A DNA stretch of 64,000 bases from Branchiostoma floridae. Its lineage: Eukaryota > Chordata > Leptocardii > Amphioxiformes > Branchiostomatidae. The DNA is taken from positions 5,543,258 through 5,607,257 of the forward strand of contig NC_049984.1 of assembly GCF_000003815.2 (NCBI RefSeq), in the 5' to 3' direction. The position numbers and the translations under genes were made by a program. Shown here one piece after another: positions 22,893 through 64,000 of the stretch. How positions within the stretch are numbered: the first letter of the stretch is position 1; each line of letters starts with the position of its first letter. Under the pieces are notes generated by a model. That model was given only the letters and a program-made list of their open reading frames with translations, was not told where the DNA came from and ran no database searches.

Positions 22893-25800
22893 CTATGTGC
22901 CAAATCTCTTCTGACTGAGCGTAGGCGGCAGCTTGTCGGTGACAGCCTTGATTGGTCGTTCCACGGCCACGAGTTCCGCCCCGTCCTCCAGGAAACTCAG
23001 GTGGAGAAGTGCCTACAGGAGGAAAGGTCATAGGTTATAGATCATAGGTTATACAAGAGAGTAACTTGTTTAACCTTATATCCACTGAAATAGCAATGCT
23101 CCTCTTGATCATTAGCTTTCACGTTTTAGTGGTTAATAATGTGTGTGAAAACAAGCAGAGTTTTTATGCACAACAAGACACAATTCAACCACTGGCTGCC
23201 AGAAACTTGTTTCAACAAGAAACCATTTTGATTGATTGATAACTTCAAGGCATTGAATATAGACGAGAATTAAGTTATAGCTCTGATTCATTTAAGTCTT
23301 TGTAACATTTTTATATAAAATCTTAGTCTATGTTAAATACATACATGACACACACTGTGTAAGAAAATACTGGACAATGGGTTTTGATTTGGAACAACAC
23401 AAGCCAGAGATTTAATAAATCTATTCTAGTAAAACCTCTTCCCAACTGAAGAAGTCTTTTTGGCACTAAATTTTGATTGGTTTCAGGGTTAGTCAGCAGG
23501 GAGAGGGTACTGGAACAACTGTAAACATAGTAGAAACATAGGTGCTAAATCAAAGAGAAAAATGGGCTCTTTTGTGCAACTTAAATGCCCATCGAACAAA
23601 AAAAACAAAGTTTTTAGAAGTACTCATAAGGCCTATACATGTTGGGTAGATTGCCCAACTTGCAAGAGAGAAAAAATATTTTCAACATTGTAAAGAAGCA
23701 AGCATGTCAAATATCAACAAAGAACTGTCCTATACAAATTTGATGCCAAATGGCTACTTCAGCAGGGAGAAAGTTACGATGGGAGAGCAGCGATGACTTA
23801 CCCGATATCCCCGACAGACAGCGAAGGCGTGTCTGGTCTCCTCCCTCACTGCTGGGTCCAGCTTCATCAGCTTCTCCCTGCTGTAGAAAGTACTCCCCAG
23901 CTTGGGCAGCTTCTGTTCAACACAGGACAAACAAAATACAGATATTTCACCTACTATTGGAAACATTGGAAAAATCATGCTGAGTGACTGATACAAATTC
24001 TGAATCTCTGCATTGGATGGAAAGGAGGTAAAATCATAAGCATTCCAAATGACAACTGGTAGTATCTAGAAAAAACACTTTTGGAAAAACGTCTTACCTA
24101 AGGATACTTATCATTTGAATATAAAATGTATATTGAATGTTTTTTCATGTTAAACCTAGCAGCCTTTTGTTTGAAATATACAAGTACATACCAGACAAAA
24201 GAAGTCACATTTACATGTATGCACATCTTTTTTCTTCTTCTTTTTTTACATCTATTTATTTGTCTAGATCAATAAGAAAGAAAGAATTGCCATGTATGCA
24301 TGTTGTTTGATTTCTTTGTCATATATTACTGTCGTTGCTTAAGCAAAAAACCAAACTTACTTTGCTCTTATCTATTACACAAAACATTCGCTGGTCCTGT
24401 AGAAGGATTTGTGTTGGGTTGGCGGGATTGTACGCGGCCTGTGTCACGACCTCCGACCTCTTCAGCCACTCCTGGTGCAGCCCCTGTCGCTGAACGTTCC
24501 GGCTCCAGTCGGTGTACCGGCTCTCCGAAACATCAAACTCGAAAAACTGAACAGGAGTTAAAGTAGCAGTAATATGTTACCTGGATTGTTAGGTATCTAC
24601 TTTCTCTAAATATTGATAGAAAGTCTCACAAAATCTTCTAATCATAAAATAGGATTCGTAACATAAGAAATACGTATCTCAATAAAGCCTAGATAACTAG
24701 TTAATCATCCACTAGTTGTGAGAGGACAAGTCTGACATTTGCGGTGACAACATCTTCAATGGGTCTACTGCACAAGCCGGGAAGAATTAAACTTTGGATT
24801 TACAAGTTGAAAGAGATGTCGAGAGTGCCAACTCCGCCGGGAGATTATCCCACTCTCTCGCTTACACACATACACATTCACATAAACACACACTCTCACA
24901 TATACACACACTAAAACAAATACACACACACAAATACACACTCAAACATACACTCACACAAATACACACTCACACAAATACACACTCACACAAATACACA
25001 CTCTCACAAATACACACTCATGCAAATACACACTCTCACAAATACACACTCTCACAAACACACACTCATACAAATACACACTCACACAAATACACACACA
25101 AACATATAACAGCAAAACTACGAAAACCTCACCCTCCTTTTTCAGCACTGGAATCCAGTGCTGAAGATGGCTTCTGCACTGGATTTCCAGTGCTGAATGT
25201 TCGTCAGCACTGGTTTACTGGTTTTTCATACAGGAGTCCTGTATGAGAACTACTCACCTGTTGTGAGGAGTGGACCACCATGAGCCATGGCTCTGTGGGG
25301 TGAAAGGTCATGGCAGACACAGGGCTGGGGTGTTTAGGCAGGCTGCACTGATGCTGGGGAGGGAAAAAGGGAGAAAAAAATTTAAAAAAACATTTAGTTT
25401 TCATAATTTTTACAACAAGATACAAGTGTGTCGAGGCTACTAAAAATTTTGGAGAGCCTCTCCAAAGTAAGAAAAAAAATAAATAAATAAAAGTTGACAA
25501 CATTTCATTTTCAGCCTTTTTTTAAACATAGAAATTAGCAAAATGAAAGTCTGTTCAGACAACTGAAAATTTGTGCAAGCCCCCTCATGATCAAACAAAT
25601 TCACAAATACGTAAAGTACAAAATTCAAGCAGCCTATGTCATGTTTACACATGCATTGCAATTAAAAATACATGTAACAGTATACAAGGTGTCTTGTAGG
25701 ACCAATAATCAGTGTAGTTGACTATGTCAAGACTACGAAACTACAAATTGTTTTGCTTTGACTTACTTTTCTTGCCTTGATGTTGTAAACATGAACAGAA

Positions 25801-28800
25801 CAGTCGAGATGAGCTGCTGCTATCCACTGGGAGTCACTACTCACAGCCAGGGCACTGATGGTCGTGGGATGGGCACTGCCTACAGTTGCAGTACACAACA
25901 GACATTTCAAATTGAAATAAAGTCTGCAAAACGAACATGTACAATAAAATGAACAATGCCAAGTACCTCACCTCACCTCATTGGTCCAAGTACAAAGTAA
26001 GGTAAAACATGCAACACAACAAGAATCATAAAAGTCCTCATCATTCATCCATTCTTGGGTTATCATGTTTCATACTATCCAACAAAAATGCCCCTGCAGT
26101 TCCAACAAAAACTGGTAGAAGGCCAAACCTGTGTCACATCTACCACCCATCAAAAATCAAGGGATGTCTAGCTACATAAGATACAAAAACTGTTGCACTG
26201 CAGTACCAAGGAAATCTGACAGGGAGCCCATAATAAGCTAACCACTACTAAATTTGATGACAATCCACCGCAGCTTCTTTGCTATATGCAGTCACAAACA
26301 AAAAACACTACCAAAGACACAACCTTCTAAACAAAGGTGATAAGTTTGACTTACCTTTTGGAGGTAGAAAAGTGTGCACAAGAACAGGGTGAACAGCATC
26401 AACATGGAGCAACTGTACAGCGCCCTGATTGGTCGCTATAACCAGTCCAGAGGCATCATGGGTAAAGACCATGTGATGAGCAGGTTGGAGGTCAATGGGA
26501 AGACATCTCACCTGGAATATAAGCACAGAAAAATTCTACTGATTTCTCCATTGTAAACAGAAAATTTGAGGGAAATGTGATATACTGGTTTGGCTGTTCA
26601 ACATGCACAGCCAGGGCTGCCCAACTAGCCTGTGGCTATCATGATCACAAAGGGCTTGCCCTGCTGACAGAGACAACAAGTAATTAAGGTTTTCACATAA
26701 AAAAAGAGACCATCTATTAAAAAATCATCAAGAACATTTTGAATCAAAAGACATGTATATGTCAGGGTGGAGATAGCAATCTGGCAATCTGGTCATCAAG
26801 TTTCAGACCTCCATATTACATGAAATGTCCACGTTATGTAGGTGCATCAAAGAGAAATAATTTCATTTCAAATACACCTACAAACACATTTCCAAAATGT
26901 AACTTTAAAATTCTGAATTTCTTTACAAAATAAAATTTCCTGAAAAGATTTGTGATACATACCCTCTGTAGGACTTTCACCCCCTCCTCTTTAGGTAAAT
27001 GGAACAGTCGGACATGTTGGACGTCGCCGTACGCAACCCAGGTGCCACACCCGGAGACAGCACTGCACACAATCTGCTTCATGTTCTGATAACGAGATAT
27101 TAATTACGATCATTGATAAGCTGCTGAAAATAATTAGGTGTTGATGGCAGAGTCTAAAGATTTTATCTCTTTCTATGGAATAATGTAAGGACCACCGCAA
27201 CGGCCTAGTGGGTAAATCTCTTGCCTTGCATGCGGTGGGTCACAGGTTTTCTGCGCCATGCTTAAGACTCTTTTAAAAATGGCAATACTTCTGTCTCTGT
27301 TTATCATTTATGAGTCAGAATGAAAATGGTAGCTCACCACACACCACTACCAGTGGACTAGCCTCCTGATGTATTACTATCACATCCGTGTAGCCCATGA
27401 GCTATGGGGACTGGGGACATGGACGCCGCCCTAAATACACCATGCGCTGTGGGAAGGACCCAACTTTCTGACCTACAACCACAACCAACCATTGTTTTGC
27501 TAATAAAAACAACAACCTCTTGAACATCTACCTTTGTCTTCAGATCCAACAGTGACACTGGCTGCTGGGTAATGGGCAGCCTTCCATCAGGTACACCTGT
27601 AAAATAGACACAAGATTTCTTTTTTCCAAAACATTTTGCATCATCTTTTACAAAATAAAAACTGTCTCTGCTGACACCACTGAGTCTAATCTATACGTGT
27701 TAAGCAGTCTTTTAAACTCACAATATTTCTAATGGATTCAAAGCCTAAAAAGATGACATGGCAACATTTTGAGCCTTAAATTACAAAGATAAAATAATAA
27801 AAGAAGACAAAGAATGTAAGATAAAGACAGGCAGTGACATAAACAGAGAGATGGAGACAGAGACAGAAGGGGAGATCCGAGAGAGAGAGGAGATAGAAGA
27901 GAGGAGAGGGATAGAGACAGAAATAGTCAAAGTGAGAGACAGAGAGAGACTGGCAGAAAGAGGGAGACAGGGAGAGATGCAAATAGAGACAAAGGGAGAG
28001 AATGACCTGACACTGCTGTACATAGTGTTTCCTATAAGTTGCCACAGCTCCAGTCTACACAGAGAAAGAGAGGAAGAAAGAGAGAGATGGAGAGAGAGAG
28101 AGAGATGGAGGGAGAGAGAGAGAGGGGGGGAGAAAGAGAGAGAAAGAGAGAGAGAAAGAGACAGAGAGAGAGATACTGACCTGGCACTGCTGTAGTGTTT
28201 CCTAGTTGCCACAGTTCCAGCCTAGTCTGGTACTGGAACAGTAACCTCCGTGCTGTCTGGGCAACGTGTACCAGTTTTCTCTGTACAGCACAAACAAATG
28301 TAAAACACTGAAGAGTTCAATGTCACCTTCACAGAGAAATATTTAGTATATCAAACCAAGAGTATTCCCCTACAAATATCAATGCCTTTAGCTACTGTTT
28401 ATTATTTAATCTGGTCATAAGATGAGCTTACATTTCCACGAGTCACAAAAACTGTATAACAGGGAGGCCATAGAAACGTACTAGTACTTGTAATACAATG
28501 TCATTTCCTCCAACATTGGAACATGTTCGAAGATGCTCGTGACATTTGTGCATGTATCCTAAAAATATTGCTGTTTTGTGACAAAAAGGACTGATGGACC
28601 ATATATTTGCCTGCAATCTGAGCAAGGTTGTTGTACTGCAAACTTGAGAAGACTAAGTACTTACTACACAAGCATCTATGGCGTTTCACAAGACATGTTT
28701 AGCACCACACTTTCGGGGTAAGACGAGAAACACATTGCCTTCTTATCTACAGCAACGAAGTTTGTTACTTTGTTGTGATCAGCTTGTGTAACCACCAAAA

Positions 28801-31800
28801 AGTCATTTGGGCGAACCTGTTTTCAACATCCCGGTGACGAGAGTGTTATACATTCAAGTTTTAATACTGGCATGAGTCCAAGGTTGTTTGACATTTTTCT
28901 ATTCCATTTACACACTGGACAGATGTTTTTGTAGGCTATTTTTAAGTTCATTGTAAAGTTTCATTAACTATTCTGTCCTTTAATGGCTTAAGATACCGTT
29001 AACTTTTTAAATATTTGCAGTGATTTTATATACATGTTTGTGGTTTTGGTGTTGCCCTGTCAGTGTAAACATCATCATGCCAACAAACAGAAGTCCCATA
29101 TTCCACTGTTACTGCTGTTGTTTAAACTGCAAACTCTAAGATACCCCAAGCTCTTCATTTTCACAATACCGGGTGATACAAGTGTCGTGAAATTAAGCAA
29201 ATTTACAGTACCAAGATATGCTTTGCATCAAATGAATGGCTCTTGACACTAAAAATTGCTGGTAGATTTTTAATTCACGACAACAACACTCCTTTCATGT
29301 TGCTGACTTGACCTATACCTAATGTCACACCTATATCAAATTTTTCATTCTCCCTTAATAAAAAAAGGTGCTAGGTAAATTTACCCTCTCCTTCTGACAT
29401 GTACCATTCATCCAAATTCTACCACTTGTGGCCTTGCTATACCCTATTTATAGCGGGCAAAAAATCTGCAGTCATATGTAGGTCAAGGGTAGCAGCATAT
29501 TCCTGATGATACAGACGCGGTTCAGTGATGATCTCTAATTGGTAGAACGGCTATTATCACGGAATGAAGGACATTGGGGCTAGTAATCTCTCTCTAATGA
29601 CTGGGGGTTTGATAAAGTTGCTGAGGGAATGATGATCTATACAGGGCTCCAAAGTCATGGGAATAGCCCATACAAATTTAATTTGTTGGTTCTCTGATTT
29701 TTAAAGAAAATCTTCACAAATATGCTTAACTGGAAAAACATCATGAAAACAAAGCCAGAGAACCAGGTTTATGCCTTGGTACACTCAATTTTAAGGAGTC
29801 AGAATACAGTTGCATTCAAGTTTTCCTCCCTGCCCTATGCTTTTATGATAACCGCTTGCTACATTTTTATTTTTAAAATCTGAGAACCAAGGAAATCACT
29901 TGGCATGGCTTTACAGATGCACCAGAGCACCTGACCAAATATCTAGATGTACAGATAACATTATCAGCAAAATGAGAAGAGAGAACAAAGTACGCTTTAA
30001 AGTTTAAGTTTTCCAGGCAGAATTTAAAAAAACAGACAGAGTTTAATGCACTTCTTGTCGGCATACACAGTGACAACACAGCTTTGACCTAAGAAAAAAA
30101 CGGAATTCTGACTTCTTTTTCAAAACTTTATAGTAATACAATGAAATACCTAAATGCAAGCAAAATGAGATAGAAGAAAGTACATATGTCCAAAGTTCCA
30201 GGCAGAATTTGGAACTAAGAACAAGGCTCTCAATGTTGGCGTGCATGGTGAGAACACAGCTTTGACTTTCAAAAATTGCGATAAGCTTAGATTCTTTAGC
30301 TATGTGTAATTTTGACATATGATTTATGATGTTAATGTTACCTGGGCCTCCTTGAAAATCAGCAAATAAATAAAAAATACATGTAACTAACTTCAAAGGA
30401 TTTATCATTTTTCTGACAATTAAAGTCAGGAACATTGTGTAAAAATCTAATAGTATACATTACCTTAGTACTTTTATGAAAGTAGGCCTATCTATAGCAT
30501 AAGCATATCTACATTTTGTACAATGTAGATGCACCAGCGCACCCACAGTCAAAAATTGGGTGCCTAGCTCCAAATTTTGGTACACAAAGTGTATCTGTAT
30601 CATTATCTGTATAGCCGGTATAACCGCCCATCTCTAACCGCCCTTCGGCGTAACACACCAGCTAAGTGTACATGCACACAGTACACATTTCCAGCCCTGC
30701 TTCGGCTAGCTGAACCTACAAAACTAGGCCAGGGGCACCCATAATTGGTTTTTACCTGACAACCAGACACAGCTGTTGCGCACACGAAAGGGTTGCGATA
30801 ACAAAGTCAATTCCTATTATCAGACTTCCTAATAAAGTAGCTTATCTTGGCATTGTGCACGTTATCGCACCACCCATGGATTGATTCCGTATTCAGAGTT
30901 ATGGGATAGGCAGGAAATGACTCCTCAAAATGGGATTTGGAAAAAGAGAGAGAGATATCGTCATATCATGTCGGTGGATTTTGTGGGAACAGAACATATC
31001 TGTCATGTCTGTCATTCAGATCATTATTTTCTATGGAACTTATCTCTCAAGCGCTTCCACAAGAGCTACAAACTTTATCTGAAGGCAAGGAAGATTGAAG
31101 TGGACTTACATTGTATGTCCTAACTGCTAGCAAAGAAAAAGTTACGAACAGGCAATCACGTCTTGAAACATTTGTGTGTAACATTACCTCATAAAGGAAA
31201 GTTTCCAATTTCTGACTTGAAGATCTGAGAATATGTCAAGTGGCTCAGATCCAAGAACAATGGACAAAAAATGTTGGAATTCAAGTTTTGAAAAATAATC
31301 ATGATTTTCCCTGTGAAAAGAGCCTATTTCTCCTCCCTATTTCTCCTCTGAAATAGTAAGATAGTATAAACCTACAAACTGCAAGAAACATTTCCGTAAC
31401 TTCTCTTGTAACTCTTTCATCTCTTATTTCAGTATCATTCCTACTCTTGTTTCTTCTTTGGTGTCTAGGACTTCTGTAGGTTCCTCCCTCAGCCAATAAT
31501 GACATGAAAAGGTTAACTTTGTATCCGTCATACCTATTAGTATAACACCTTCAATGCCAAATACCATCCAGTTGGTTTCAATTTTGGGATCACCCAGTTT
31601 CCACCATCGTTAAAGCAATTTGGATGTCTCACCACGACCTTGTAACTGTCTGTGTGTGACTATGATCGACCTCTACATCTATCTGTTCCGCGAGCTTGAG
31701 GCAGCTGGTGTTCCCCTTTGCTGCATTCCTATTGGGTCTTTCTAGCAGGACAATGTGTCATCATTATTACTGGGCTGCCAAACTGTATACAGTAGGGCTG

Positions 31801-34800
31801 AAAAGTGGGTCAACTATCATTAGTGGAGTCTTTGAGCGGTGAACTTTGAAAAATTTGTTTTTAATACCTTCACGACAAAATTGGTCTTTTTAGCAGGAGC
31901 GAATTTCATCATTAGTGGGCTGCCACACAGTAAACAGTGGGTTGAAAAGTATGTCAACTGTCATTAGTATTGTCCTTGACCAAATCGTATGGTAAATTTT
32001 CAGTGGTTTTGCCTTCATGGTGACCTTGCACTGAAAAAATAATGACACAAACCCATTTTATCGTCTGCTTTTTGTACCTCAGTGGGACCGCGTGGCACGA
32101 TCGGCAGCGCGTTGGTCTCAGGCCCAAGAGGTTCCGGGTTCGAATCCGCTTGCCGTGTCACCGATCTTGTGCCCTTGGGAAAGGCACTTTACACGACTTC
32201 CCTCACTTAACTCAGGTATGAATGAGTACCTAGCTGCGGCTAGAGGCAGTGACAGGCCTTTATGGTGGTGACAGGCCATAGGGGCATGTTCGGGCATGAC
32301 ACACCCGCCATGACGCTTGAGTCAGGGGTAGCAGGAACCCCTTGCATCCTTGGTCGGAAGTCCTCCTAGGAGACGGAAACTCCAAACAACAAACCTGCAT
32401 CTGCTGGGGCCGTCTTGCATTGCATACCAGGGCTCGAAATTCATTTTTGGGATTAGGTGCACTGGTGCACCCAGCTTAAGAAATTGGGTGCACCAAAAAT
32501 TTTTTGGGTGCACCACTTAAATTGCACCACTTAAAAAAGTAATAACCTAGTAATAAAACTTAGTTACAAGCTATCAAATTCTTAAACAAGTACCATGATA
32601 GACATTTTTATTATCTTTCTAACACTTAGATGTCAAGATTATGATATATTACAAGTATACTTTGATATCTTTACATACACAACCTAAGAAAATAATTGGG
32701 TGCACAGTTCCAATTTTGGATGCACCTGGGTGCACATGCACCCAGTATTTCGAGCCCTGCATACAGTTGCCCCCGTAGGACTGGTGCGCCAGTGGACGAG
32801 AGGGTGGAGAAGGACGTCCTTCACCTTAAAAACCCAAGTGCAGGCCAGGTAGACGGGTCACCTTAAACCCGTCTGCCTACCATTGTCTTCCGAGACAGAC
32901 GGATGCCAACAAATTTGTACCTCAGTATTGCTTCAGCCAAGAACTTGAAAAACCTGCCAAAACCAAGCCTCCACCAGGCCTTCCTACAGTGGTATGGGGA
33001 TTGTAGAATTCTGCCAAAAAAATGGGACATTGGCCAGGATAGTCCACGCTAAGGTTAGCATTCCCCCTCCAGAGCTGCGCGGCCAGCCAACTCCTCTGGT
33101 AGCAAAGCTCCCCAGGCAAATTAGTCGGTCCACCAGTGTTCTAGCCAGCCTGTTTTTCCATCCCCTGGATTTTGAATGGAAATCTTGTCGGAGGTGCAGT
33201 GATCCTAGGGGGCGGGGGTATATACTTTCTGGGAAAATTTTGAAATCTAGACCCCTCATGAAATGCTAATTCCTTTATTTTGCAGGGCAAGTTTTGCTGG
33301 TAGACTCAGCTTTGTTCAAATAGAATCTTTTATTACTCTATAAATCTACATGCCGATTTTTGTCCATCACAGAGGACGGAATGGGCAAAATTTTTGTCCG
33401 TCCCCAGCAGCCAAATTCCCTCAAAGGACAGAAGGACAGATGCTGGCTAGAACCCTGCGGTCCACCAAATAACGATAACAATGCCAACATAGCGCCCGTA
33501 CCTGTGGGAATGGTAGGATGTTCCTGCTTTGTTTCCCCAGCTTTCCGACAGGCATGGCCACCAGAGTCATATCCACTCCTGAAGACATAAGGAGCAAAGA
33601 AACAATGTTACGAGACATTACTAGTATTTAATTTGTTTCTATTTCAATATCAAGATTCACAAAATGAGACCTGAGGTCCGTAAATAGTTTAATCAGGTTG
33701 GTAGATCAATCAAACAAAGTCTTCTTCGTTTCACAACCTTCTTTTAATTCTTCAGTAGACGTTTCGGCGACAATCTGTCTTCTACATCAGTACAGAATGA
33801 AACAAAACATTATCTGTTCGATGTGAACTTGACAGAGACAGTGCAATCCGAACTTGACCTATTGTATTGTAACGTAATTACTTGACATGGAATGTTCTCG
33901 AACGTGATACGTTAATCATCCTTGCCACTTTGTGACGTAGTGGCAAGGATGCGCTCCCAAACAGTTTATACCCCCCTTTGTTTCATGAGATCTGAGGTGT
34001 TTTTCAAACATGACTAGAAAATCCTTTGCAAGACAACACCTATCGAGCACAGTTGTAAATCAGATCTTCCACCTTCAAAAAAGGTTGTACCACATTAGTG
34101 TAACCATCCACTTCTACACTGTACATCACTTTCTTGATACATTAAAGATTGCCTTAAATTGTTATTACAAAAGGTACTGAAACCAACCATTAGCGCTACC
34201 TGATAATAACATGATAATTATTATTTATCTAGTCATGCTAGCCTCTCCTGCTTTGTAAGCAGACTTTTAAGATTTATCTTGTATGTCTGTGTCTTTTTCT
34301 GTCTATTTTTTTCCATGTCGCTGTCCTTTTTGTAGCTTCAACAATACTTCTATATTACTTCTCATTAGTTTTAAACTGGCTGTCCAAAGTTATCCTTCAA
34401 GGAACAGTGAATGGAGCCAGGAAAAGGGGGAGGCAGAAGAAAAAATGGGCTGACGATATCAACATGGAATGGACAGGAAAGAGCATTGCAGCATCTCTCT
34501 TGCTGACGCAGGAGCGAATGGGATGGAGAAAACTGATTCAGAGCACCACCATGCAGTGCCGCCACGACCCGGGAATACTGGGCTAAGGGACCAAAGTACA
34601 AGTTTCAAGGTACAAGGTACGATGCGTGTGAAGAGCCTTGTCTTGAACTTGAAGTTGTGCTGCCTTTTCCCTTTAACCATGACAGTTTTGGCTGCCAGAC
34701 AGTCTGGGCATGCCGGCATCCACAACACAATAAATCAGACGGTGGTTTAACAGTGCAGTGCCTTAAAAAGCATGTTCTGGGCACACAGACAAAGCAGGTT

Positions 34801-37800
34801 CCTGATTCAGACTAATCAACAATACAGACCCGGGATACTCTGAATACTAAATTTTGTTTCACACCCTTCAGTGACAAGTATCATCTGGACAGGACTACTT
34901 GGATATGTTTGAGAATAATGAATACAACAAAATGACTGAAAGTTTGCAAATGCAAGAAACTCTTTTCAGGAAAATAAAGAGCATTTCTGTTTTAAAAAAA
35001 GATGGGGAAGATTGGTATCATAGTCAGCATCCTGGCAGTTGAAAAAAAGTATAAAAGCTGGAAACTGAAAGTTTGCAAATGCAAGAAACTCTTTTCATGA
35101 AAATAAAGAGAATTTCTGTTTTAAAAAAAGATGGGGAAGATTGGTATCATAGTCAGCATCCTGGCAGTTAAAAAAAAGATGTACCCTGTAAGAGCTGGAA
35201 GAGAGGTTAGGGTCAAAAATCAGATCCAAAATACATGTACCATTTCTACAGACTAAAAACAAAATGTATTTGAATCCTTTCTGAAGCCCTTGTCTCACAT
35301 AGCCAACCATGGTATCTCAACCTTTTCCAGACCATGGTTGGTTATTAGTCCGGAGCAGGGTCATCCATGTCAGCCGACTATGAATTTCCATAAAGTTGGG
35401 AATGGCATAATCTGCTTGGATGTGATCAGATAATGAAGGGACTGGACTTAGAATATAATACATGTAGATAGGGCTAGGGCTACGACCGTGGCGCTTTGAT
35501 ACATCCGATCCCTCGATCTTTGAAGTTAAGCAATGTGCTGTTACAGTAGTGCTTGCACATATGTGTGGCCAGGGCTTAGAGGTGAAGATGGGTGCTGGGC
35601 CCGATGAATCTTATGATCAGGGAGATGGTCCCTTGTTCTGATGCATGGGCAACTTAAGCTTTAGCTTAGATACAAGGCTACTCCCAACCCAGCACCAACC
35701 TTACAATGTAGTTGCGGGAAGGTCCTGAATATCTGACGGGGTTTTAAGGAAAAATATCTAAGATTGGTGTCAAAACCACATTTTCCCCCCACCTCCTGAT
35801 AACATGATTCTCCGGTCATCACCAGGGCGCGCACGTCGTGGGTGTGTCTGTTCGCTACGTTGTGCCAAATCCAGCTCCCCCTGCTACCCATGAGTTTAAG
35901 GAAAAACATCTAAGATCGCTGTCAAAAACACATTTTTCCCTCACCTCCCGACACCACGTATTCTCCGGTCATCACCAGGGCGCGCACGTCGTGGGTGTGT
36001 CTGTTCGCTACGTTGTGCCGAATCCAGCTCCCCCTGTACCCAGGAGTTAAGGAAAAACANNNNNNNNNNNNNNNNNNNNNNNNNNNNNNNNNNNNNNNNN
36101 NNNNNNNNNNNNNNNNNNNNNNNNNNNNNNNNNNNNNNNNNNNNNNNNNNNNNNNNNNNGTATGACCATTTGGGTCGACTCCGGCAGTCCACACCAACGT
36201 TTCATCCTGTATCAAATCACAGGTTTGTAATTAGCTTTCTTTCTTCCTTAAGTGCCCACGATCATTATGTTGATTATTATGGCACAGTCTTTATTTAACA
36301 TCCTATCCAAGGGACGTCCCCAGCCAAAGATAGCTACTCACCTGTGTGAAGTGGAAAAAGTGGTGTAAAGTGCCTTTCCCAAGGGCACAAGAATGGGGAC
36401 ATGGCAGGGTACTGCCAACGTACTGCCAATCACACCACACAATTATAACATCTTAAAAATGAAATCATCAATAAGAGAAAATTCACCCCAAAATGAGTAG
36501 CTACATTGTATGAATGTCACTCGCAAAAAATCTATTTCTTACCTTACTAACACACAAGGACAGTACATCGGCTTTGTGGCAATGGTGACTCTGTAAAAGG
36601 TGCAGAAAAAAACATATTTTGACACCATAATTGATAAAATTACATCTTTCTTTGTCTAGCACAAATCTTCTCTCTGTGAACAAATTCATCTTTTAAAGAA
36701 ATCACTACATAAAGTCTTCTCTCAATCTGAGTTGAGGAAAGAAGACTTAGTAATATATTTGAAAATGCTGTGCAGTTTAAAAATGGATCAGTAGATGGGG
36801 TTGTTACACAATGACAACACTGGTATCAAGTTGACAGCGACTAACCTGTATTAGTGTTCCATGTTTGCCATTCCAAAACCTGGTCTTGCCTAAAGAGTCG
36901 CCACTGACTATTGTAAAGTCTCTGCAAAACATCATGAAAATCAATAGCATAAAACATGAAGACAAACCAAAATCATGGAAATCAAACTTTTCATTTAAAG
37001 AATCAATACTAACCGACACTAGTAATTAAACACATTCCAGCAGTTGTATTAACTTAAAACAGTATTTTTACAACTAAAAATTTAAATAATGCTCTACATA
37101 AAAAGACTCACCTTAAGATTGCCACACACCAAACAATGGTTTCTCTGGTTCGGACTAGTCTTTCAACTTTTATTCTTAAGGTAGGAAGACCTGAAGAAAG
37201 AAAAGAAACATTTCCAATTATCTTCAGGAACCTTAAAGTCCTAGCACCTAAGAGAGATTTTACCAAAACTCAAGCACAAGCTCCCACCATGCCAAACATA
37301 AAGAATATTAAGTGCCCCTATCCTGGTGTGAGCAGCTCAAACCTTACAGTCCAGATTTCTGTAGTCTGTAGTTACTGTACAAAACTATAAGAGAAGGTTC
37401 AGGACAGCTGTAGCCCTTCTTACAGCAGGACATACAGATCAAGTTTTAAACTTCACAGTCACATGAGAGCCTGCAGAGGAGGAGAACCTTCCCACTGATC
37501 TTCGCATGCGAAGAACCGGCCATCACAAAACTAGTGTGCTATACATAACAAAGTACAGATAGTACATGATAGGATTCTCACCTGTAGCCACATCCCAGAC
37601 CCTGATGTTGTCACATGAGCCGGTCACCAACACCTCTCCGCTCTCGTGCCAGGATAGGGACAAGATTCTCTCTGAAGAAGGAATGTCATGGTGAGGATGT
37701 TGTTTGCCACCTGAGCTATCCAAAGTGCCCCAATCATTCAATAGGATCCATCATGCAAAGGTATGTGTCTAGGATACATTTTTACATACAAGGTGATACC

Positions 37801-40386
37801 CATCCTTTTAATAATAAAAACTGTAGAGGTCATATTGGAAGTCTTGTGCCAAGAACGGAGTTGCCTGGAGAGAGGTGTCTACAGTCACCATGCATCAGCT
37901 GATGATGTCTGTAGTTGTTTGATAGATTGAGTGATTGATGGATTGATTGATTGATTGGTTTGTTTGTTGGTTGGTTGATATCAAACTGAGTAATGATCCC
38001 TGCAATTCTTGTCAACTTGCTCGAATTGACCTATAACATACTGTGACAATACAGAGGCTAAGGACAAATGTCAAAAAGAAGTGGTAAAACTTCTTTTTGT
38101 CACCAACAACTTTTAAATACAATAATTCACCTTCTTGCTTCTTGAAAGCTCTTGAATAGGACAGCTCTTCCTCTGTGACCTCAAACAGCCGTACACAACC
38201 GTCCTCACTTCCAACCTGAGAAGGTTTACACAGAACACACATGTAGCAAACAACTTGAAGAAAATACGACCAAATATGTTCTTTATTTGATAAAAGCCAA
38301 GATATCAAAGAATCCATTCCAATATGTGGAGTAAAATTATACACTCAAACATACATGACCACCTCTATATATGGACCACCTGGCCAGTGGAACTACATTT
38401 GGTGGTCCTTAACTTACGAATATTTACCTGGCTCTAGTGATCCCCTGTCAACACAGACTAGATTGTGTCTGTGAACACAATTTTCTGATCCCCAAAGAAG
38501 TCCCCTTGGACAGTTTTGACTGCATAAGACTCTGAACCTATATGAGAACCTATTTATATGCACTACAAAATATAGTGTTGAGTCTTTGTTTTGTTGAAGA
38601 GGTTATAGAAGATAAAGCTACACTAGTACTGTAAACATAGTTAAAAGGAGGGAAAATGGCCGACCCACTCCATATGAAACTTACCGCAATAGAAGACTGT
38701 GTGCTGTTGACTGCCATACACCATACTGCACCTCCATAGGAGTCCACTGCATACTGAAACATCACAGTGGAAAATGTGATATAGTCATCCTAAACTGAGA
38801 TGAAGAATGATGCTATCTAAAGTATTATTGCCAGTTTGGGCAGATAGACATTTCCGGACAAAGAAGACAGTAGAAGTGCAATGTAGCTACTATTGTTTCA
38901 ACCCCAAACTCAAAGATACTGGTATGGCACATTCTAGATTTTCACTATGCCCCAAAAATTTCAGCAATGCAGACTTGAGTATATGAAGTAAAAGTGGTAT
39001 CCACACAAACTTTTAAAACACTGCAAGAGAATTGTGTGACCTCTCACCATCAACCCATAACAACTTGGCACGGATATGGACATGATTAAAAAGGACACGA
39101 TTTTATGACATACAATATATGTTGTGCTATGTAAGTATTGTATTGTGTGTATGTGTCGTGTGTGTATCTAGGGAGGCCCCTGAAAAGCAGTGCTAGTCAC
39201 TGATGGCAGCTTACCCTTGTAAAAGAATACAGAAATACGTCAATGAAGATTAGACATCCAGGTAATAAGATATACTGACGAAAACTAGTGGACGCTAGTT
39301 GAAACATCTGACCGTTTCCCAAATCATATCCAGTTGCTTGAGTAACTGCCTTTTGGAATACAGTAATAATATAATTAAACAAGTTGAGTATATTACCTTT
39401 GGTATAAGCTTGGTCATGTTGTACTCAATGATATCTCCATGGAGACCAGCGGAGAAGAGACGATGACCGACCCAGACCATGGCTTCCACCGACCTCCCTG
39501 CATCTCCACATATGATCTACAGCAAGACAAAGGGATGTTGTTAATGTGACACATTCAACGGGGGAGCTCAATCTTTAGCTTAGGTAGAGTGCATTGTCCA
39601 GTGGTTAGCAACCCTGCCTCGGAACCATGAGGTTGGGAGTTGGGAGCTCAGACTCAGAGTTCAAGCCTGGGTAGGGAAACTCCCGGAAGTTAAGCAACGT
39701 GCAGTCCAGACAGTACTTGGATGGGAGACCAACAAGGAAGACTGGATGTTGTAGCCGGGTCATACCAAAGACTCTTAAAAATGGTACATACTTCTTTCTC
39801 TGCAAAGAGGAAGAGTATGGAAGCTAAACACACTTCACTACCAGTGGACTGGCCCCCTGCTGTAGTGACTTATATAAGTGTGACCCCAGGGCTTAAAAAT
39901 GGAGATGGGTGACGGGTCTACACATCGCAAGGTGATGCATGGCAACTTAAGCTTTAGCTTTAGCTTAGGGAAACTCCGTTGGGGCTGCATTCCCAAAGGG
40001 TCATAAAATGTCACAGACATTTTGCTGATTAGGCAATGTTTACATTAGATTATTTCCTTACCTTCTCCTGGTACCAGTTGTCATTGATGCTGTACACTTC
40101 TATGGACCCGTCCGACCTGCAAGAGAAAAACAAACAAAAGATTAAAGACATAACTATAGCGATCCAACAAACATTCGACTTTGGATGGAAAAAGACACTG
40201 TGCAATTTCTGTATTGTCAGATATTGGCTTGAATGAAAAATTTGAAAAAAAAATGAAGAATCATTTTTAAAAAAGCCCCTACCTGGACACAGCCACCCTG
40301 TTGTTTATCTGTTCATGAGCGATACTGTGGATAGCTTTGGGCATGTACCTGAAGAACCGAACATCGTGGAGTCTGAACTCCCCCAT
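22893..40386 (-). CDS. UTP4: UTP4/cirhin, SSU-processome WD40 protein
   Basis: UTP4 belongs to the t-UTP subcomplex of the small-subunit processome in the nucleolus and is needed for pre-18S rRNA processing and rDNA transcription. Twenty-one coding exons read with compatible phases: 40283-40386, 40062-40116, 39397-39516, 38685-38753, 38131-38215, 37582-37671, 37112-37190, 36846-36921, 36543-36590, 36160-36206 (runs into the N gap), 35945-36033, 33502-33578, 28181-28280, 27532-27596, 26963-27085, 26355-26511, 25767-25879, 25258-25353, 24361-24546, 23802-23912, 22893-23012. Visible residues number about 669 against 686 in human. The start MGEF.LH.VRFF.Y and the end VAVERP...LPP...KRFGT match human cirhin at both termini. 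WD signatures include RLFSAGLHGDIIEYN, VGSEDGCVRLFEV, ILSLSWHESGEVLVTGS and HTHDVRALV. The start has a good context (ACCATGG) and an acceptor lies five bases before it, so a non-coding first exon exists upstream. Confidence 0.95.
24830..25120. repeat. CACACAAATA minisatellite
   Basis: About 280 bases of CACACAAATACACACTCA-like units of 10 and 18 bases, with CTCACA variants, inside the UTP4 intron between exons 18 and 19. The long open frame through it is a by-product of the repeat. Confidence 0.9.
25141..25198. repeat. double perfect palindrome TTCAGCACTGGA/TCCAGTGCTGAA
   Basis: 25,141-25,165 is a perfect 12-bp inverted repeat with a single central base. A second, shorter inverted pair with the same word follows at 25,176-25,197. 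It lies between the minisatellite and UTP4 exon 18. No function can be assigned. Confidence 0.8.
27186..27480 (+). repeat. SINE copy with tRNA-like head
   Basis: The head CAACGGCCTAGTGGGTAAATC and CTTGCATGCGGTGGGTCACAGG is tRNA-like. The body shares ACTCTTTTAAAAATGG, ACTTCT, CACCACACACCACTACCAGTGGACT and related words with 39,585-39,975. It lacks the 5S-related block. It sits in the UTP4 intron between exons 14 and 15. Confidence 0.55.
27840..28172. repeat. GA-rich simple sequence
   Basis: Two blocks of GAGAGA/GGGAGA/GACAGA simple repeat flank a duplicated piece of UTP4 exon 13 at 28,006-28,064. The long open frames on both strands here are low-complexity artefacts. Confidence 0.9.
28006..28064 (-). 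pseudogene. duplicated fragment of UTP4 exon 13
   Basis: On the minus strand this reads ACTGGAGCTGTGGCAACT...GGAAACACTA...CAGCAGTGTCAGGTCA. It matches the 3' end and donor of exon 13 (28,181-28,280) with several substitutions and small insertions (a TATA and a TGTA) that break the frame. It lies downstream of the real donor, between two GA-repeat blocks, so the unit of duplication was probably about 170 bp. Confidence 0.8.
32088..32905 (+). repeat. tRNA-derived SINE, interrupted by a nested element
   Basis: The head carries a pol III A-box-like TGGCACGATCGG at 32,093-32,104 and a B box GGTTCGAATCC at 32,137-32,147. The body follows with GTGCCCTTGGGAAAGGCACTTTACACGACTTCCCTCACTT and GAATGAGTACCTAGC, a block typical of long-lived deuterostome SINEs. 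The element is split at 32,428 by a CAGGG element and resumes after 32,760 with AGTTGCCCCCGTAGGACTGG. Pieces of the same body are at 36,330-36,420 (inverted) and 60,110-60,262. Confidence 0.75.
32428..32759. repeat. CAGGG fold-back element with GGGTGCACC words
   Basis: Starts CAGGGCTCGAAATTC and ends TATTTCGAGCCCTG. The interior repeats GGTGCACC and GGGTGCAC in both orientations. An exact 5-bp CATAC is on both sides (32,423-32,427 and 32,760-32,764). Ends are nearly the same as in 9,296-9,622, but the reiterated internal word differs. Confidence 0.8.
33758..33790 (-). other. hammerhead-like motif, probably a retroelement remnant
   Basis: The minus strand reads CTGATGT, a GACA-GAT-TGTC hairpin, then GCCGAAACGTC. 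Hammerhead ribozymes have CUGANGA, a stem II hairpin and GAAAC...GUC. The first core strand ends in T where A is required, so activity is doubtful. Such motifs with a palindromic ACGT after GAA are known from Penelope-like retroelements. No reverse transcriptase is recognised beside it. Confidence 0.3.
34371..34585 (+). pseudogene. 3' tail of a LINE reverse transcriptase, frameshifted
   Basis: A first frame reads KVILQGTVNGARKRG. After a frameshift in an A-rich run a second frame reads KKKWADDINMEWTGKSIAASLLL, continues ERMGWRKLI and ends at TAA near 34,585. The pattern (LQGTV.G.R.RGRQ.K.W.D.I..WTG) is the familiar end of non-LTR reverse transcriptase polyproteins. The rest of the element is absent, which fits 5' truncation. 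It lies in the UTP4 intron between exons 11 and 12. Confidence 0.7.
34934..35178. repeat. recent tandem duplication, 130-bp unit
   Basis: Units start at 34,934 and 35,064 with ACTGAAAGTTTGCAAATG and are almost identical through GGTATCATAGTCAGCATCCTGGCAGTT. Only a few differences are visible (for example CAGG against CATG), so the event is young. Confidence 0.9.
35479..35670 (+). repeat. 5S rRNA-headed SINE fragment
   Basis: GCTACGACCGTGG...ATCCGATCCCTCGATCTTTGAAGTTAAGCAATG follows the order of 5S rRNA from its 5' end through the AAGTTAAGCA A-box region, with many changes. The body has GGGCTTAGAGGTGAAGATGGGTG and the tail GCAACTTAAGCTTTAGCTTAG, shared with 39,585-39,975. Confidence 0.7.
35741..36059 (-). 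repeat. tandem duplication of UTP4 exon 11 with flanks
   Basis: Two units of about 155 bp (35,741-35,895 and 35,896-36,050) each hold the acceptor, exon and donor region. The start of a third unit (TTAAGGAAAAACA) enters the N gap. The exon in the second unit (35,945-36,033, 89 nt) keeps the frame. The one in the first (35,793-35,880, 88 nt) has lost one base and its final codons read differently, so it is dead or mis-assembled. Confidence 0.85.
36060..36159. other. assembly gap of 100 N
   Basis: Exactly 100 N, the usual placeholder for a gap of unknown size. It falls inside UTP4 exon 10 and the tandem exon-11 array, so it removes the end of exon 10 and perhaps more duplicated units. Confidence 0.99.
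36330..36420 (-). repeat. SINE body fragment, inverted
   Basis: Reading the minus strand gives TTGTGCCCTTGGGAAAGGCACTTTACACCAC followed by AGGTGAGTAGCTA. This is the conserved body block of the SINE at 32,088. No head or B box is left. Confidence 0.65.
39247..39355. repeat. dispersed CAACTGGATATGATTT-family copy
   Basis: TTAGACATCCAGGTAATAAGATATAC, GACGCTAGTTGAAACATCTGACCGTTTCCCAAATCATATCCAGTTGCTTGAGTAACTGCC. It is the most complete copy in the window and partly self-complementary with 21,285-21,465. Confidence 0.65.
39585..39975 (+). repeat. composite SINE with tRNA-like and 5S-like parts
   Basis: The head GTCCAGTGGTTAGCAACC and AGTTCAAGCCTGG resembles tRNA A and B boxes. At 39,684-39,756, CGGAAGTTAAGCAACGT...CAGTACTTGGATGGGAGACC...GTTGTAGCC follows 5S rRNA closely. 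A body and a tail of AAGCTTTAGCTTTAGCTTA follow. It lies in the UTP4 intron between exons 2 and 3. It is a 5S-related SINE (SINE3-like), not a functional 5S gene. Confidence 0.8.
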
Positions 40387-41207
40387 GGTTCCTGGTGTGG
40401 GAACAACGGTCAACATAAAGGTGATGATTTAATTTAATTTAATCTTATCTTTTTTTTTTTTGATAAATACAAAGTTAAAGAAGACTTCACATATAACAAG
40501 TAACACTAAGGTGTTTTTTTTACAGCTTTTAATGAATTAACCTTTATCTATATCAATAATCAATCTTGTTTAAACATCATTTGTGTTTTTATCATAGACA
40601 TCTATGTAGCATTTTCTTAGATAAAAAGTTTGTTTGGTTTTCGATTTAGTAGAGTTATCGCATACAATTTTGATCAAAATTACCAAAAACAATGATCTCA
40701 TTAAATCTGATAAAAATAACAGCATTTTAAGCATAAGTTACTCTTCTCACCTTATTAACTGAATCATGGGCGTCATTATTTTAATGGATGGTATAATATA
40801 ATGTGATGTCTAAACACGTGTTTCCTCCCCCCCTCCCCACACCGACATTTTCAAATCCCACAATCTCTTATTTCTCCCCTAAAATAACGTCCAGAAATCT
40901 GTATCAACATCCTGGTTACCTTGATGATGCTCCCTTCTTCTTAAAACGTGCTAAAACCTCGGCTTCTCTTGTTTTTAACTCCGTTTTTGCCAGAAAAAAA
41001 AGTTTGCTGCGTCGCGTGCTTTTTTGGTTAGCGTGTCAAAGTTCATCAGGTGTCAAAGGTTGTGACCTTGAGGTCAACATATTTGTAAAAGCGCGGGAAA
41101 GTACAGTTCAGCACGGTCGCCTTTACGTATACTTTGGCCGTTGGAGGAAAATTGCGCCGTTTTGGCGAGGATTTTGCTTGATTGTTGGTGATAGATAGCT
41201 GTTCAAG
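40387..41207. promoter_or_regulatory. shared divergent promoter region of UTP4 and CHTF8
   Basis: The two start codons lie 821 bp apart on opposite strands. An acceptor at 40,392-40,393 on the minus strand shows that UTP4 has an upstream non-coding exon, so the real promoter gap is smaller. A TTTTGGCG motif at 41,160-41,167, about 40 bp before the CHTF8 ATG, resembles an E2F site and would suit a replication factor. GC content rises in 40,980-41,170. Transcription starts are not determined. Confidence 0.55.
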
Positions 41208-42565
41208 ATGGTCCAGTTCGCCATACGAATGTGAGTATATAATAATATTGTCTAGAATTTTTTTGTGTGTACAATTTACGAGTGACGTTATAATAAAGGT
41301 GGGAGGGGGGCATCCCAGCATAATGTCACCAGTAAAATTACCGGCATCACCATTAGAAAACGAATAATCTCGTTAGGCCGGACTTGTATAGCCCAAGTTC
41401 AGTGTTACGTTTAATTCCTCGTTCCCAGATTTTTGTAGAAAATAATTTTACGGAGCGGGCAGATGTGATGTAAAATTTGTGTAACACCCCCATAAATTAT
41501 ATAACGTTACTCCGACTGTACTGAAAACATGAATAAATTAATAGAACAAAGTTCCAGCACAACAGCTTAAGGTTAAGGTTATTATTAAGGTTAAAGATGA
41601 GTATGAAGACAACTTTCCATTCAAGTAAAAAAAATACTATTATAGGAAACTCGAAGAATTTAAGAACTTATAGAATGACTAAACATGATTAATTTAATAC
41701 ACTAATTTAATTGATGTTTGCTAAAGTCAACTATGTTTTAAATAAGACTGTGAATCTGATAACCTGAAACCCAGGCCCCAGACGGAGGGTGGCTGTCCTG
41801 AGTGGACCATGGTGGAGCTGCAGGGGGAGCTGGAGACCAGGGACAGCAGTGGGCTGCCTGGGAACAGGCTAGGGGAACTGCATTTTACCAAGGGGGTATG
41901 GACAGAACTTTTTCATTTTATTTTTTTCTAGAACATTTGTACATCTAATGAGTCATGGCATATTTAGTTTTACTTTTATATTATATAGTAGTTGAAGCAG
42001 TCCATCATATAGCACCAGAGGTCCTCCCAAACAAACATTCTGATGCCTTTTGATTTACATGTTTTTTCATAGTGGACCCCTTTAGCTGTGTCTTTGGGTG
42101 TCTGAAAAATGTGCCCAAGCCTGAATATTAAGTATGTCTACAACATGCATGTGCATGGTTTCAAATGGAGAATTGCCTCTCAAAATGCAGCAAATGGCAG
42201 TTTAATAAAAGTCATGCAAAACAGGAAAAAAAATGAAACCATTGCCATCTTCCGAAGTTTGTCATAGATTGCTTCTTGACGTGTATTTTTATTTCCAAAT
42301 ACGGCAGGGGCAGCCGATCCTACTGATTGGGCACCATGTGCTACATGGGAAGGTGGTGGAGCTGGAGAAACCGTTCGCTGTGCTGGTGAAGGAGAAGGAG
42401 AAGGACAACAAAGACGACTCCACGGAGAGTATGGACACCAGTGTTTCTGCAGCGGACACGGAGAAATGCTCAGACTACCTGGTGAAGGCAGTCATCAGGA
42501 ACAAGCTGGTATTCAAGAACAGGCCCCGGCCGATCATCAACCTGCCCAACAAGAGGGGACACTGA
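41208..42565 (+). CDS. CHTF8: CHTF8, CTF18-RFC clamp-loader subunit
   Basis: CHTF8 (Ctf8) binds DSCC1 and CHTF18 to form the alternative RFC that loads PCNA and supports sister-chromatid cohesion and fork progression. Three exons, 41208-41230, 41775-41895 and 42308-42565, join with phases 2 and 0 into 133 residues (human 121). The start MVQFAIR matches human MVQ.VI. Family blocks seen are [48 protein letters not shown] and [21 protein letters not shown]. An acidic insert ([17 protein letters not shown]) lengthens the middle relative to human. It is head-to-head with UTP4, as in human. Confidence 0.95.
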
Positions 42566-46439: not shown

Positions 46440-46590
46440 CCACGTGATGGGATCAGCTGTTGACAAAGCGTAAACAGAGCCGAAGAGAAGCTGATCTAGC
46501 CGTTTCGTCTTTGTCCACCAGCTTGCGATCCAGGCCGCACCAGTGTTTATCCCGAAGACCGACCGCTAGAACACCCGACTCTCCTCCGCC
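46440..46590 (+). promoter_or_regulatory. likely promoter and 5' UTR of the 307-residue gene
   Basis: A GC-richer stretch with CCCACGTGATGGGATCAGCTG, that is an E-box of CACGTG type, directly precedes the ATG at 46,591. The start context CCGCCATGG is close to ideal. No TATA box is obvious. Confidence 0.45.
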
Positions 46591-56880: not shown

Positions 56881-57232
56881 CTGAGCTGTTTGCGTGAAGA
56901 TTTTTTGTGTCATCCGTGCTGGAAAAGTTTTCTTTGCTCAGTTGCCGTCCATGTTTACGTCTTTGCATCCTGGGAAGTTTAGACAGATCTCACTTTTTTC
57001 TGGGGGCGTTGATGTCAAACAACTTTTGATATTTCCAATCAAATAAAAATATAGATACAACACGGATATTTGATATACTATAATTAATGTTATAGATATA
57101 AAATATTATTGTTCATTCAAATTTTCTTCTTGTATGTACGGACAATTATTTATCTTAAAAAAGAGTCCTCCGTTGTATAATCGTTTGGTCCAACGCACAG
57201 GGTGCAAAGTTCAGGGCCAAGGAGAGGACAAC
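56881..57232. promoter_or_regulatory. shared divergent promoter region of TRIQK and ACSF3
   Basis: Between the TRIQK non-coding exon donor and the ACSF3 start codon there are about 350 bp. The segment holds a GC-richer part (56,930-57,010, with CATCCTGGGAA) and an AT-rich part next to ACSF3. Transcription starts cannot be read directly. Confidence 0.5.
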
Positions 57233-60200
57233 ATGCTGCTTCGAATCTTCACTTCCAGGGTTAGATTTAACCTCCCTACAACTGTTTACCTCAAGAACGC
57301 GGCAGTTTTTACTCAAAATGGCGTCTACTTCTCCTCATCATCAACTCAAGGAACCCCTGTTTTCCTCAGAGCGCAGAAATATGCCGACAGGACGGCTATC
57401 ATCGACCGAAACGGGTCACACTCGTATCTGGACTTGCTCCAACAAGGTTGCCTCCTCTCACAGAAGATATCCTCAGTTCTGGGTACCAGTGACGACGTGA
57501 AGGGGGCGAGGATAGCCTTCCTGTGTCCAAATGATGTGTCTTATGTCATCTCCCAGTGGTCTGCTTGGATAAGTGGCGGCGTGGCCGTTCCTTTATGTAA
57601 AACCCACCCCGTACCGGAGTTAGAATATGTTCTCTCAGATTCTCAAGCTTCCCTCCTCATGTACACAGAAGACTACGCAGATAAAGCTGCCATCATAACG
57701 GAAAACTCGGACATCAAACCTCTCATGTTGAAGAGAGAGAACTACATACAAAGGGAGAATTCAGAGATGAAGACCAAGATGGGAGAATGTGTGGATATCC
57801 TCCTGGACTTGGGAAGTCGTAGCTGGAAGGACAGAGGTGCGATGATAATATACACCAGTGGGACCACGGGTAGACCCAAAGGTGTGCTGACCACTCACAA
57901 AAATCTGCAAGCTCAGGTAAGTTATTTGTTTTGTATGTTTGATATAAACAGTTAACGGCATAAGACAATGAGCTAGCTGAATCAAGTATGAACCAGAAAT
58001 AATGAAGTATGTCAATCTGTTTTTAACCAAGGAGTTTCTTTTGATTATAACCTCCATTAAAACCTCCTTGTCTCCATGAAATAAACATAGTTTGTTTATG
58101 ACTCAGGGGTCTTCACCTTTGATATATTACCCACACTTCCAGATGCTACCCATGTGTAGGTGGAGCCATGAACATAATGCTTATTAATGAACTACAAAGT
58201 AATTAAGAAAAATGTGACACTCTTAGTATTTCACACCTCTAGGTTTGAATTTCACAGATCTTCAAACTCTTGTTCTGATTGTTCTTCTCAGGTAGAGGCG
58301 ATGGTTGAGACCTGGGAGTGGTCTCACACAGACGTTATCCTGCACGTCCTGCCCCTGCACCACGTCCATGGGATCGTCAACTGTCTGATGTGTCCGCTGT
58401 GGTCGGGAGCCATGGTCACCATGATGGAGCAGTTCAGCGCGGAAAACGTCTGTGGACCAGTTTGCATCTAGTAGTAGTATTTCAGATTTTTAGATATTTG
58501 TGGTGTTTTTATGTTTTATGTGAGATGAAGTTTTTGTCATATTTAGGCAGAAATATTTTTGTACAGTGAAACTTGTATAAGCGACCACGTCCATAAAATG
58601 ACCATGTATGTTCATCCTTTAAATATTGCAACCTCCTGGGAAAAGTTTCCAGCCAATGTATTATTGAGATTTTTAACTTCATGTATGTAGAGTGTGCCCA
58701 TGTCCTTTGTGTCGATGGAAGTTAGACAACCAGGTAATAAGATATGCCAAATAGCAATTATGCAAGCAAATGGATATTATCAAGCAACTAGATATGAACA
58801 TGTACTTTAGTAGTGAAAAGAAGACTTTAAAGAAATCTGTATCATTGAGCTTTATTTTGTATGCCACAGACGTGGAAGGCCCTTCTGAGTGCCTCCCTCC
58901 TGTCGCAGTGGTCAGACTCTGTCTCCCAGAGGATGAATGTTTTTATGGCCGTGCCCACCATCTACGCCAAGATGATCGAACACTATGACAAACACTACAC
59001 CAAACCACGTGTCAGGGACTACGTCAAAGCTGTCTGTAGGGAGAAGGTTAGGTGAGTCAACTGTTTGTTTGTATCACATACCAGTAACCGGTAAGCTGTG
59101 TAAACATGACACACCAGTTCTGTACATTTAATAATATCAAGCTATGTAAAACCAGATGGTTTGATTCAATCAAACGGGATGGATACCTACTCTTATTGCC
59201 GAGTCTGTTGCATACTTTGACAAGCTCAAAGGTGTGGCTGTCCTCAAACACAAGACGTCCGCTTTACTTCCCAACCCTATTAAACTGAAGCAAGGTACCC
59301 TAGGAAAAAGGTGCCATTCTTAATACAGCTCAATTCCAAAATGCTCGTTTTGCAGCACCAATAGTTGTAGAAAGTTCTTGTCAGTCTCCATAGAACCTAG
59401 GTTTTTCCATTTACAATGCATTTAGGACTGAAAATGCATAGCTTGATAATTGATTTGATAACCAACCTTGTGTATCCACTTTATATCACCTATGGTGGCA
59501 TTTGGGTTTATTTATTTCTACTTTTATTTTACTTGCCTGTTACATTATCTTCTTGCAAGTACATGTATCCAAGAACCAGGGAAATGAATTAGTATGGCCT
59601 GATCAATTGCGTTCAATGATATTTACCAATGACACGTTTAGAAATGTTGTTGGAGGGTTACGTCAGGACATGTCAACCAGAGTAGTGGTAAGTCAGCACT
59701 TTACTAGGTGACACCCTATTTGTCAAGACGATAATTGCTCCTACTGCCTGATTATGATGTAGATATAGAGTCCGTTTCTAACGTGGATTTCTTCACGTGA
59801 TAAAAGGCAGGTAACCAATCATGTGAAGACAGCCACGTGAAACACCTTAGGGGTCAGTAAATAGGACTTTTGACCCCTATATCTATAGACCAGGCTCTTT
59901 TGTTGGTACAAACAAGTTAGCATTCAGACACGTTTTTGCCTGGATTTTATGGCTACTTTTGGTTTTGATACTATGAATTTTTTTAAGTTTGCAAGTTGAT
60001 CTGAAACTTTGCTGTATAGTGAAAATAAAGAGTTTGCAATATCCTTGAGTTTGCACTTGAAACACTATAGAAGTACAATGGAAAACAAGGCAAGTTGTTC
60101 TTGTTGGTTTGGTTGTTGACTCAGAATCTAAAGGTTCTAGGTTTGAATCCAGAGCAGAATCCAACAATGTGCCCTAGGAAAAGACACTTTCCACCTATGT

Positions 60201-63696: not shown

Positions 63697-64000
63697 GTCA
63701 GCCTCTCAGTTTAACTTTTGTTCAATATTCAAAATACCTCAGGGTATGCTTGAATGACCACAGAAACAGCCTTGTGGATTTCGTTCATTTTATCTTATTT
63801 TACCGGGGTTCATAGCCTGCTTTCTTTGCATTTGGTAGATTCAAGACAGGCAGTTTTAACACCTTGATACCTTTCTGTCACTATCTCTCAGTTTCAGAGG
63901 ATCCTTGCCACAAAACCAGCAGTTCTCGAAAACTAGTTTTCTCTTGCAATGTGTGTGTGTGAGTTCAAAGAAAGTCGTATTCAACATTATTAGAGTCTTT

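Follow-up and report, generated by a model that had tools for sequence, protein, structure and literature searches.

A head-to-head UTP4–CHTF8 pair in amphioxus, probably inherited and served by a common CpG-rich promoter region

Amphioxus is fond of divergent genes. In Branchiostoma lanceolatum, 3,950 of 15,884 neighbouring protein-coding genes (25%) lie in bidirectional promoters, which are enriched for housekeeping genes and have zero to two nucleosomes in between; 372 such promoters were inferred to be putatively ancestral, most of them lost in vertebrates (PMC6292497). The retention of divergent pairs is a general phenomenon that has already been described (PMC6292497). Here we deal with one such pair in Branchiostoma floridae, whose genome has been assembled at chromosome scale, into 19 chromosomes (PMC12373286). 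The pair consists of UTP4 and CHTF8, and it lies in a stretch of 64,000 nucleotides, which we call the window.

Three described systems come closest. Like UTP4–CHTF8, the 372 putatively ancestral pairs are protein-coding housekeeping neighbours, arranged 5' to 5' and adjacent in at least one vertebrate (PMC6292497); ours is a candidate read from the sequence. The mammalian head-to-head pair CDT2–INTS7 also joins an S-phase gene to an RNA-processing gene, and the DNA between them is short and contains an E2F site; that pair has been examined with reporters, in which E2F drives the CDT2 direction only (PMC2194621). The third is the human UTP4–CHTF8 pair itself, on chromosome 16, where both genes are assigned the same CpG-island probe and the same methylation region (PMC13207186), with human CHTF8 tied in addition to DERPC (CHTF8/DERPC, PMC3670891). 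R-loops have been tabulated for human UTP4 and for human CHTF8 (PMC4489302). The orientation of the two human genes and the overlap of their start sites are assumed in this comparison.

The two genes and the interval between them

The rebuilt UTP4 gene occupies the minus strand, with its start codon at 40386, its stop at 22893 and 20 coding exons (Table 1). The splice sites printed for the model comprise 18 acceptors, all AG, and 19 donors, all GT. An assembly gap of 100 N (36060–36159) falls between exons 36590–36543 and 36032–35945, and the reading frame is open within both joined halves, either side of it. One more exon begins on the gap's right-hand side and is cut short by it; for the exon adjoining the gap on the other side, 36032–35945, the upstream end and the acceptor were left unset. 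The protein used as a query has 686 letters: the 20 exons supply 653 of them and the partial exon at the gap's right edge another 13, and the remaining 20 are X, an arbitrary number. Among the best 60 of 347 matches to solved structures, human UTP4 (chain 7mq8_LN) stands alone at E 3e-164 with a match spanning residues 1–686, followed by fungal Utp4 chains (2.9e-43 to 3.5e-37) and then by other WD40 proteins (from 5.1e-17). In the first 200 positions of the alignment the human protein has the same residue 95 times. This end-to-end match, better than that to any other WD40 structure among those 60, identifies the gene as UTP4 (U3 snoRNA-associated protein 4, or cirhin).

Two features of the gene deserve mention in their own right. 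An exon is present in two tandem copies at 35807–36036, beside the gap (77 nt at 99%, spacing 153); the copy at 36032–35945 splices in frame to the next exon, and the other looks unusable by eye. The tandem copy is possibly an artefact of assembly. One UTP4 intron carries a SINE-like element, a repeat of about 280 bp (39681–39963) found in at least 41 places in the genome, its own included, with letters that to us resemble 5S rRNA.

CHTF8 is the smaller gene, with three exons on the plus strand (41208–42565) and an open spliced frame of 133 amino acids. Residues 50–124 match the Pfam domain Ctf8 (PF09696) at 49.1 bits, well over the curated cut-off of 22 (E 9.2e-13), and this locus is the only Ctf8 match that a search of the host genome reported. 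Against solved structures the product had no match at E 0.001; with a loose cut-off a yeast-type Ctf8 ranks first, at a non-significant E of 0.48.

The first-pass annotation had placed UTP4 and CHTF8 on opposite strands with starts 821 bp apart, and the rebuilt models bear this out to the base: the 5' ends face each other, and the start codons enclose 40387–41207, well within 1 kb. Since close divergent pairs make up a quarter of neighbouring genes in an amphioxus (PMC6292497), the arrangement by itself is unremarkable.

Table 1. Features of the UTP4–CHTF8 locus and its surroundings, numbered from the first letter of the window.
Feature	Position	Strand	Basis
UTP4 coding region	22893..40386	-	spliced models, splice sites, end-to-end match to human UTP4
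UTP4 exons, first five	40386-40283, 40116-40062, 39516-39397, 38753-38685, 38215-38131	-	spliced models
UTP4 exons, next four	37671-37582, 37190-37112, 36921-36846, 36590-36543	-	spliced models; followed by the partial exon at the N gap
UTP4 exons after the gap	36032-35945, 33578-33502, 28280-28181, 27596-27532, 27085-26963, 26511-26355	-	spliced models
UTP4 exons, last five	25879-25767, 25353-25258, 24546-24361, 23912-23802, 23012-22893	-	spliced models
Predicted intron in UTP4 5' leader, 359 bp	40392..40750	-	donor 10.7, acceptor 9.3
Interval of 821 bp from one start codon to the other, putative bidirectional promoter region	40387..41207	.	both gene models
Palindromic E-box CACGTG	40815..40820	.	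count reached in 43 of 500 shuffles
CpG-rich block that tapers into CHTF8 intron 1; the core promoter for both genes is likely here	40901..41400	.	CpG observed/expected
ERR-type site TCAAGGTCA	41063..41071	-	at least one in 20 of 500 shuffles
Exact E2F consensus TTTCCCGC	41093..41100	-	at least one in 34 of 500 shuffles
CHTF8 coding exon 1	41208..41230	+	open spliced frame, GT donor; short, with no homology cover
CHTF8 coding exon 2	41775..41895	+	frame, AG and GT
CHTF8 coding exon 3 with stop	42308..42565	+	Pfam Ctf8 match, residues 50-124
Span of ACSF3-like open frames (not gene limits), extending past the window	57074..63815	+	AMP-binding domain, malonyl-CoA ligase relatives

The CpG content of the interval is lopsided. 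In overlapping 200-bp segments (step 100), CpG observed/expected runs 1.02, 1.34, 1.54 and 1.02 across 40901–41400, against 0.53 for the whole window; in the segments that follow, up to 41700 and into CHTF8 intron 1, it is 0.93, 1.11 and 0.80, and near the UTP4 start codon it is 0.35–0.62. We scored splice sites with a matrix whose training set was 21 donors and 20 acceptors, all from UTP4 and CHTF8. On the UTP4 strand the interval's best donor (AAG/gtgaga after 40751) scores 10.7 and its best acceptor (cacaccag before 40391), five bases upstream of the start codon, scores 9.3. On the other strand one does not expect an intron; the best sites there are a donor of 7.8 (40420) and an acceptor of 8.0 (41050), which presumably arise by chance. 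An ordered donor and acceptor scoring at least 10.7 and 9.3 occur in 501 of 18,052 overlapping 821-nt stretches of the window. A pair whose acceptor falls within the final 12 nt is rare, with 27 of the 18,052; both counts include true introns. For a UTP4 leader that begins at 40800, the predicted splicing would remove 11 of 13 upstream ATGs and leave two; longer leaders keep three to six. The CpG block at the CHTF8 end, taken with the CpG-poor start codon of UTP4, fits a spliced leader. UTP4 probably has such a leader, with the intron at 40392–40750, and it is likely that one CpG-type promoter region by the first exon of CHTF8, at about 41.0–41.2 kb, serves both directions.

The pair in vertebrates and its chromosomal surroundings

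The pair is not confined to amphioxus, as had been claimed at the outset and as vertebrate gene lists now corroborate. On chicken chromosome 11, CHTF8 (19157119–19158772) and UTP4 (19158792–19163525) are neighbours whose listed ends are 19 bases apart (PMC6339939). In two regional gene lists from sheep, CHTF8, UTP4 and SNTB2 come in succession, given without coordinates; the order is a hint only, because another gene shifts position between the two lists (PMC8085236). In human, a single CpG-island probe is assigned to UTP4, CHTF8 and DERPC, and so is a single differentially methylated region (chr16 69131682–69134198; PMC13207186). The chicken, sheep and human sources carry no strand information. 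That the human genes are oriented head to head is our assumption, as it was that of the first-pass annotation. For two named genes to be adjacent in chicken as well as in amphioxus is far beyond chance, which we estimate at roughly one in tens of thousands per named pair in a genome of some 20,000 genes. The pairing is probably very old, and we infer inheritance over two independent joinings.

Literature searches by gene name, with most subscription papers outside their scope, returned no title or abstract that treats UTP4 and CHTF8 together. Passages of PMC4489302, PMC6339939, PMC8085236, PMC13207186, PMC7052475 and PMC3670891 contain no such treatment, and the main text of PMC4951197 names neither gene.

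What surrounds the pair differs from one side to the other. On the CHTF8 side, an ACSF3-like gene begins at about 57074: its first piece has an AMP-binding domain (Pfam), and five pieces joined by eye find their best solved relatives in malonyl-CoA ligases (1.3e-38). Its apparent C-terminal part is a frame in the segment C6:5607200-5617100, directly to the right of the window on the same contig (C6). The name ACSF3, for what we take to be a mitochondrial malonyl-CoA synthetase, is our own assignment. Chicken ACSF3 (chr11 18805694–18846630) is likewise to be found on CHTF8's side, at a distance of about 310 kb; the pair's immediate flanks there are HAS3 (19152159–19155850) and SNTB2 (19163629–19168951), TCF25 is near (19064480–19082896), and COG8 and NIP7 lie at most 13 kb from the far end of UTP4 (PMC6339939). 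Three of these chicken neighbours, COG8, NIP7 and TCF25, were covered by family searches of the amphioxus genome. The TCF25 family has four matches, on the window's own contig at 19.1 Mb. The five COG8 matches are on C4, and the single NIP7 match, over 46 of 73 model positions, is on C14. Slow decay of gene content thus marks the CHTF8 side; the UTP4 side is different, and the pair itself is unbroken. Constraint on a promoter predicts this, but in a single case luck may do as much.

The segment to the right of the window has attractions of its own. An MCAT-like frame on the opposite strand, convergent with the ACSF3-like gene, matches mitochondrial malonyl-CoA-acyl carrier protein transacylase in the PDB (E 9.3e-30), and the two neighbours would act at successive steps in the making of mitochondrial fatty acids. 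The MCAT-like gene (at about 5397 of the segment, minus) forms a head-to-head pair of its own with an armadillo-repeat gene (about 6077, plus; Pfam Arm_2, 3.5e-31), after which comes a RAE1-like frame that runs from 9900 down on the minus strand, is cut by the segment's edge and matches an mRNA export factor in the PDB (4.8e-128). The open frame 13002–13502 gave no match in a Pfam search; we take it to resemble PMEPA1/LDLRAD4, and together with the MCAT-, armadillo- and RAE1-like group it recalls human 20q13. The amphioxus contig may thus have its counterparts on several vertebrate chromosomes. An open frame of 212 amino acids (46570–47208) lies between the ACSF3-like gene and CHTF8, the start of which frame looks like a membrane anchor by eye and for which Pfam gives OAD_gamma at 19.4 bits, under its cut-off of 27. 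Rfam (at gathering scores) and ARAGORN (with the bacterial code) found no match in the whole window.

What might have kept the two genes together

We put at about three in four the probability that UTP4 and CHTF8 are an inherited divergent pair with one common CpG-rich promoter region next to the first exon of CHTF8. RNA polymerase II would initiate both ways from the open CpG-rich stretch. CHTF8 transcription would start directly upstream of 41208, and UTP4 transcription, which runs the other way, probably at some point from 40752 to about 41150, with the 359-bp leader intron then spliced out; the true distance between start sites would thus be well under 821 bp. Retention of the pair would go back beyond the divergence of amphioxus from vertebrates, with the vertebrate genes facing away from each other as they do here. 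We propose that it was retained because a break in the interval would harm the promoter of two housekeeping genes, and not because their proteins cooperate.

Another reason for retention was offered by the first-pass annotation, which read the arrangement as pointing to shared regulation of growth and S phase. Ribosome production, through UTP4, and replication and cohesion, through CHTF8, would rise together by way of E2F and MYC sites in the interval. We scanned the interval with twelve motif patterns, the E2F consensus behind TTTCCCGC and the ERR consensus behind TCAAGGTCA among them, using 500 dinucleotide shuffles as a control. Sites of the right kind are there: the exact E2F match at 41093, a second E2F site at 41162 under a relaxed pattern, and the E-box at 40815. 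None of the three is unusual, with 34, 29 and 43 of the 500 shuffles, respectively, reaching the observed count, and twelve motifs were tried; the interval thus has no excess of E2F or MYC sites over the shuffles, and eight of the twelve patterns (YY1, CCAAT, TATA, ETS, NRF1, ZNF143, DRE and GC box) are absent from it. Nor need a shared promoter mean shared control, because in the comparable CDT2–INTS7 pair E2F acts in one direction and raises one gene only (PMC2194621). UTP4 and CHTF8 appear in separate tables of one expression study, which carries little weight either way (PMC7052475). The idea of joint growth and S-phase control thus finds no support in the motifs, which are near chance, or in the closest parallel, and we regard it as highly improbable that it is what kept the pair together.

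A plainer possibility is that nothing kept it together: in a slowly rearranging region the two genes, each with its own promoter, would have stayed adjacent by chance. Chicken and amphioxus agree in the side of the pair on which ACSF3 is found, and TCF25, near the pair in chicken, shares its contig in amphioxus, so gene content decays slowly across the wider region, and part of the linkage is the ordinary slow decay of a chromosome, which calls for no promoter constraint. Against this, inspection by eye of the open frames in the window turned up neither HAS3 nor SNTB2, the nearest genes to the pair in chicken, and COG8 and NIP7 sit on other contigs while UTP4–CHTF8 is unbroken, as constraint on a promoter would have it. 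In a comparison among vertebrates, moreover, chicken had retained head-to-head pairs within 1000 bp more often than tail-to-tail pairs (PMC2423431). Chance survival therefore seems to us unlikely, if worth keeping in view. A stronger version of the common promoter is more of a long shot: the promoter would have remained unbroken since before the chordate split while the chromosome beside it was rebuilt, and its two directions would act as one unit, so that losing either lowers the other and ribosome production is coupled to replication.

The common promoter region, without such coupling, is the reading we prefer. With its two genes adjacent on the vertebrate side too, UTP4–CHTF8 fits the known class of putatively ancestral bidirectional promoters, and it looks like a further example of a well-known shared-promoter kind, not like a novel connection of DNA replication with growth. 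If its orientation were confirmed in vertebrates and in an outgroup, the pair would offer a compact case, with 821 bp between start codons and one Ctf8 match in the genome, in which to set promoter integrity against co-regulation; otherwise it is an ordinary, well-formed member of a class already described.
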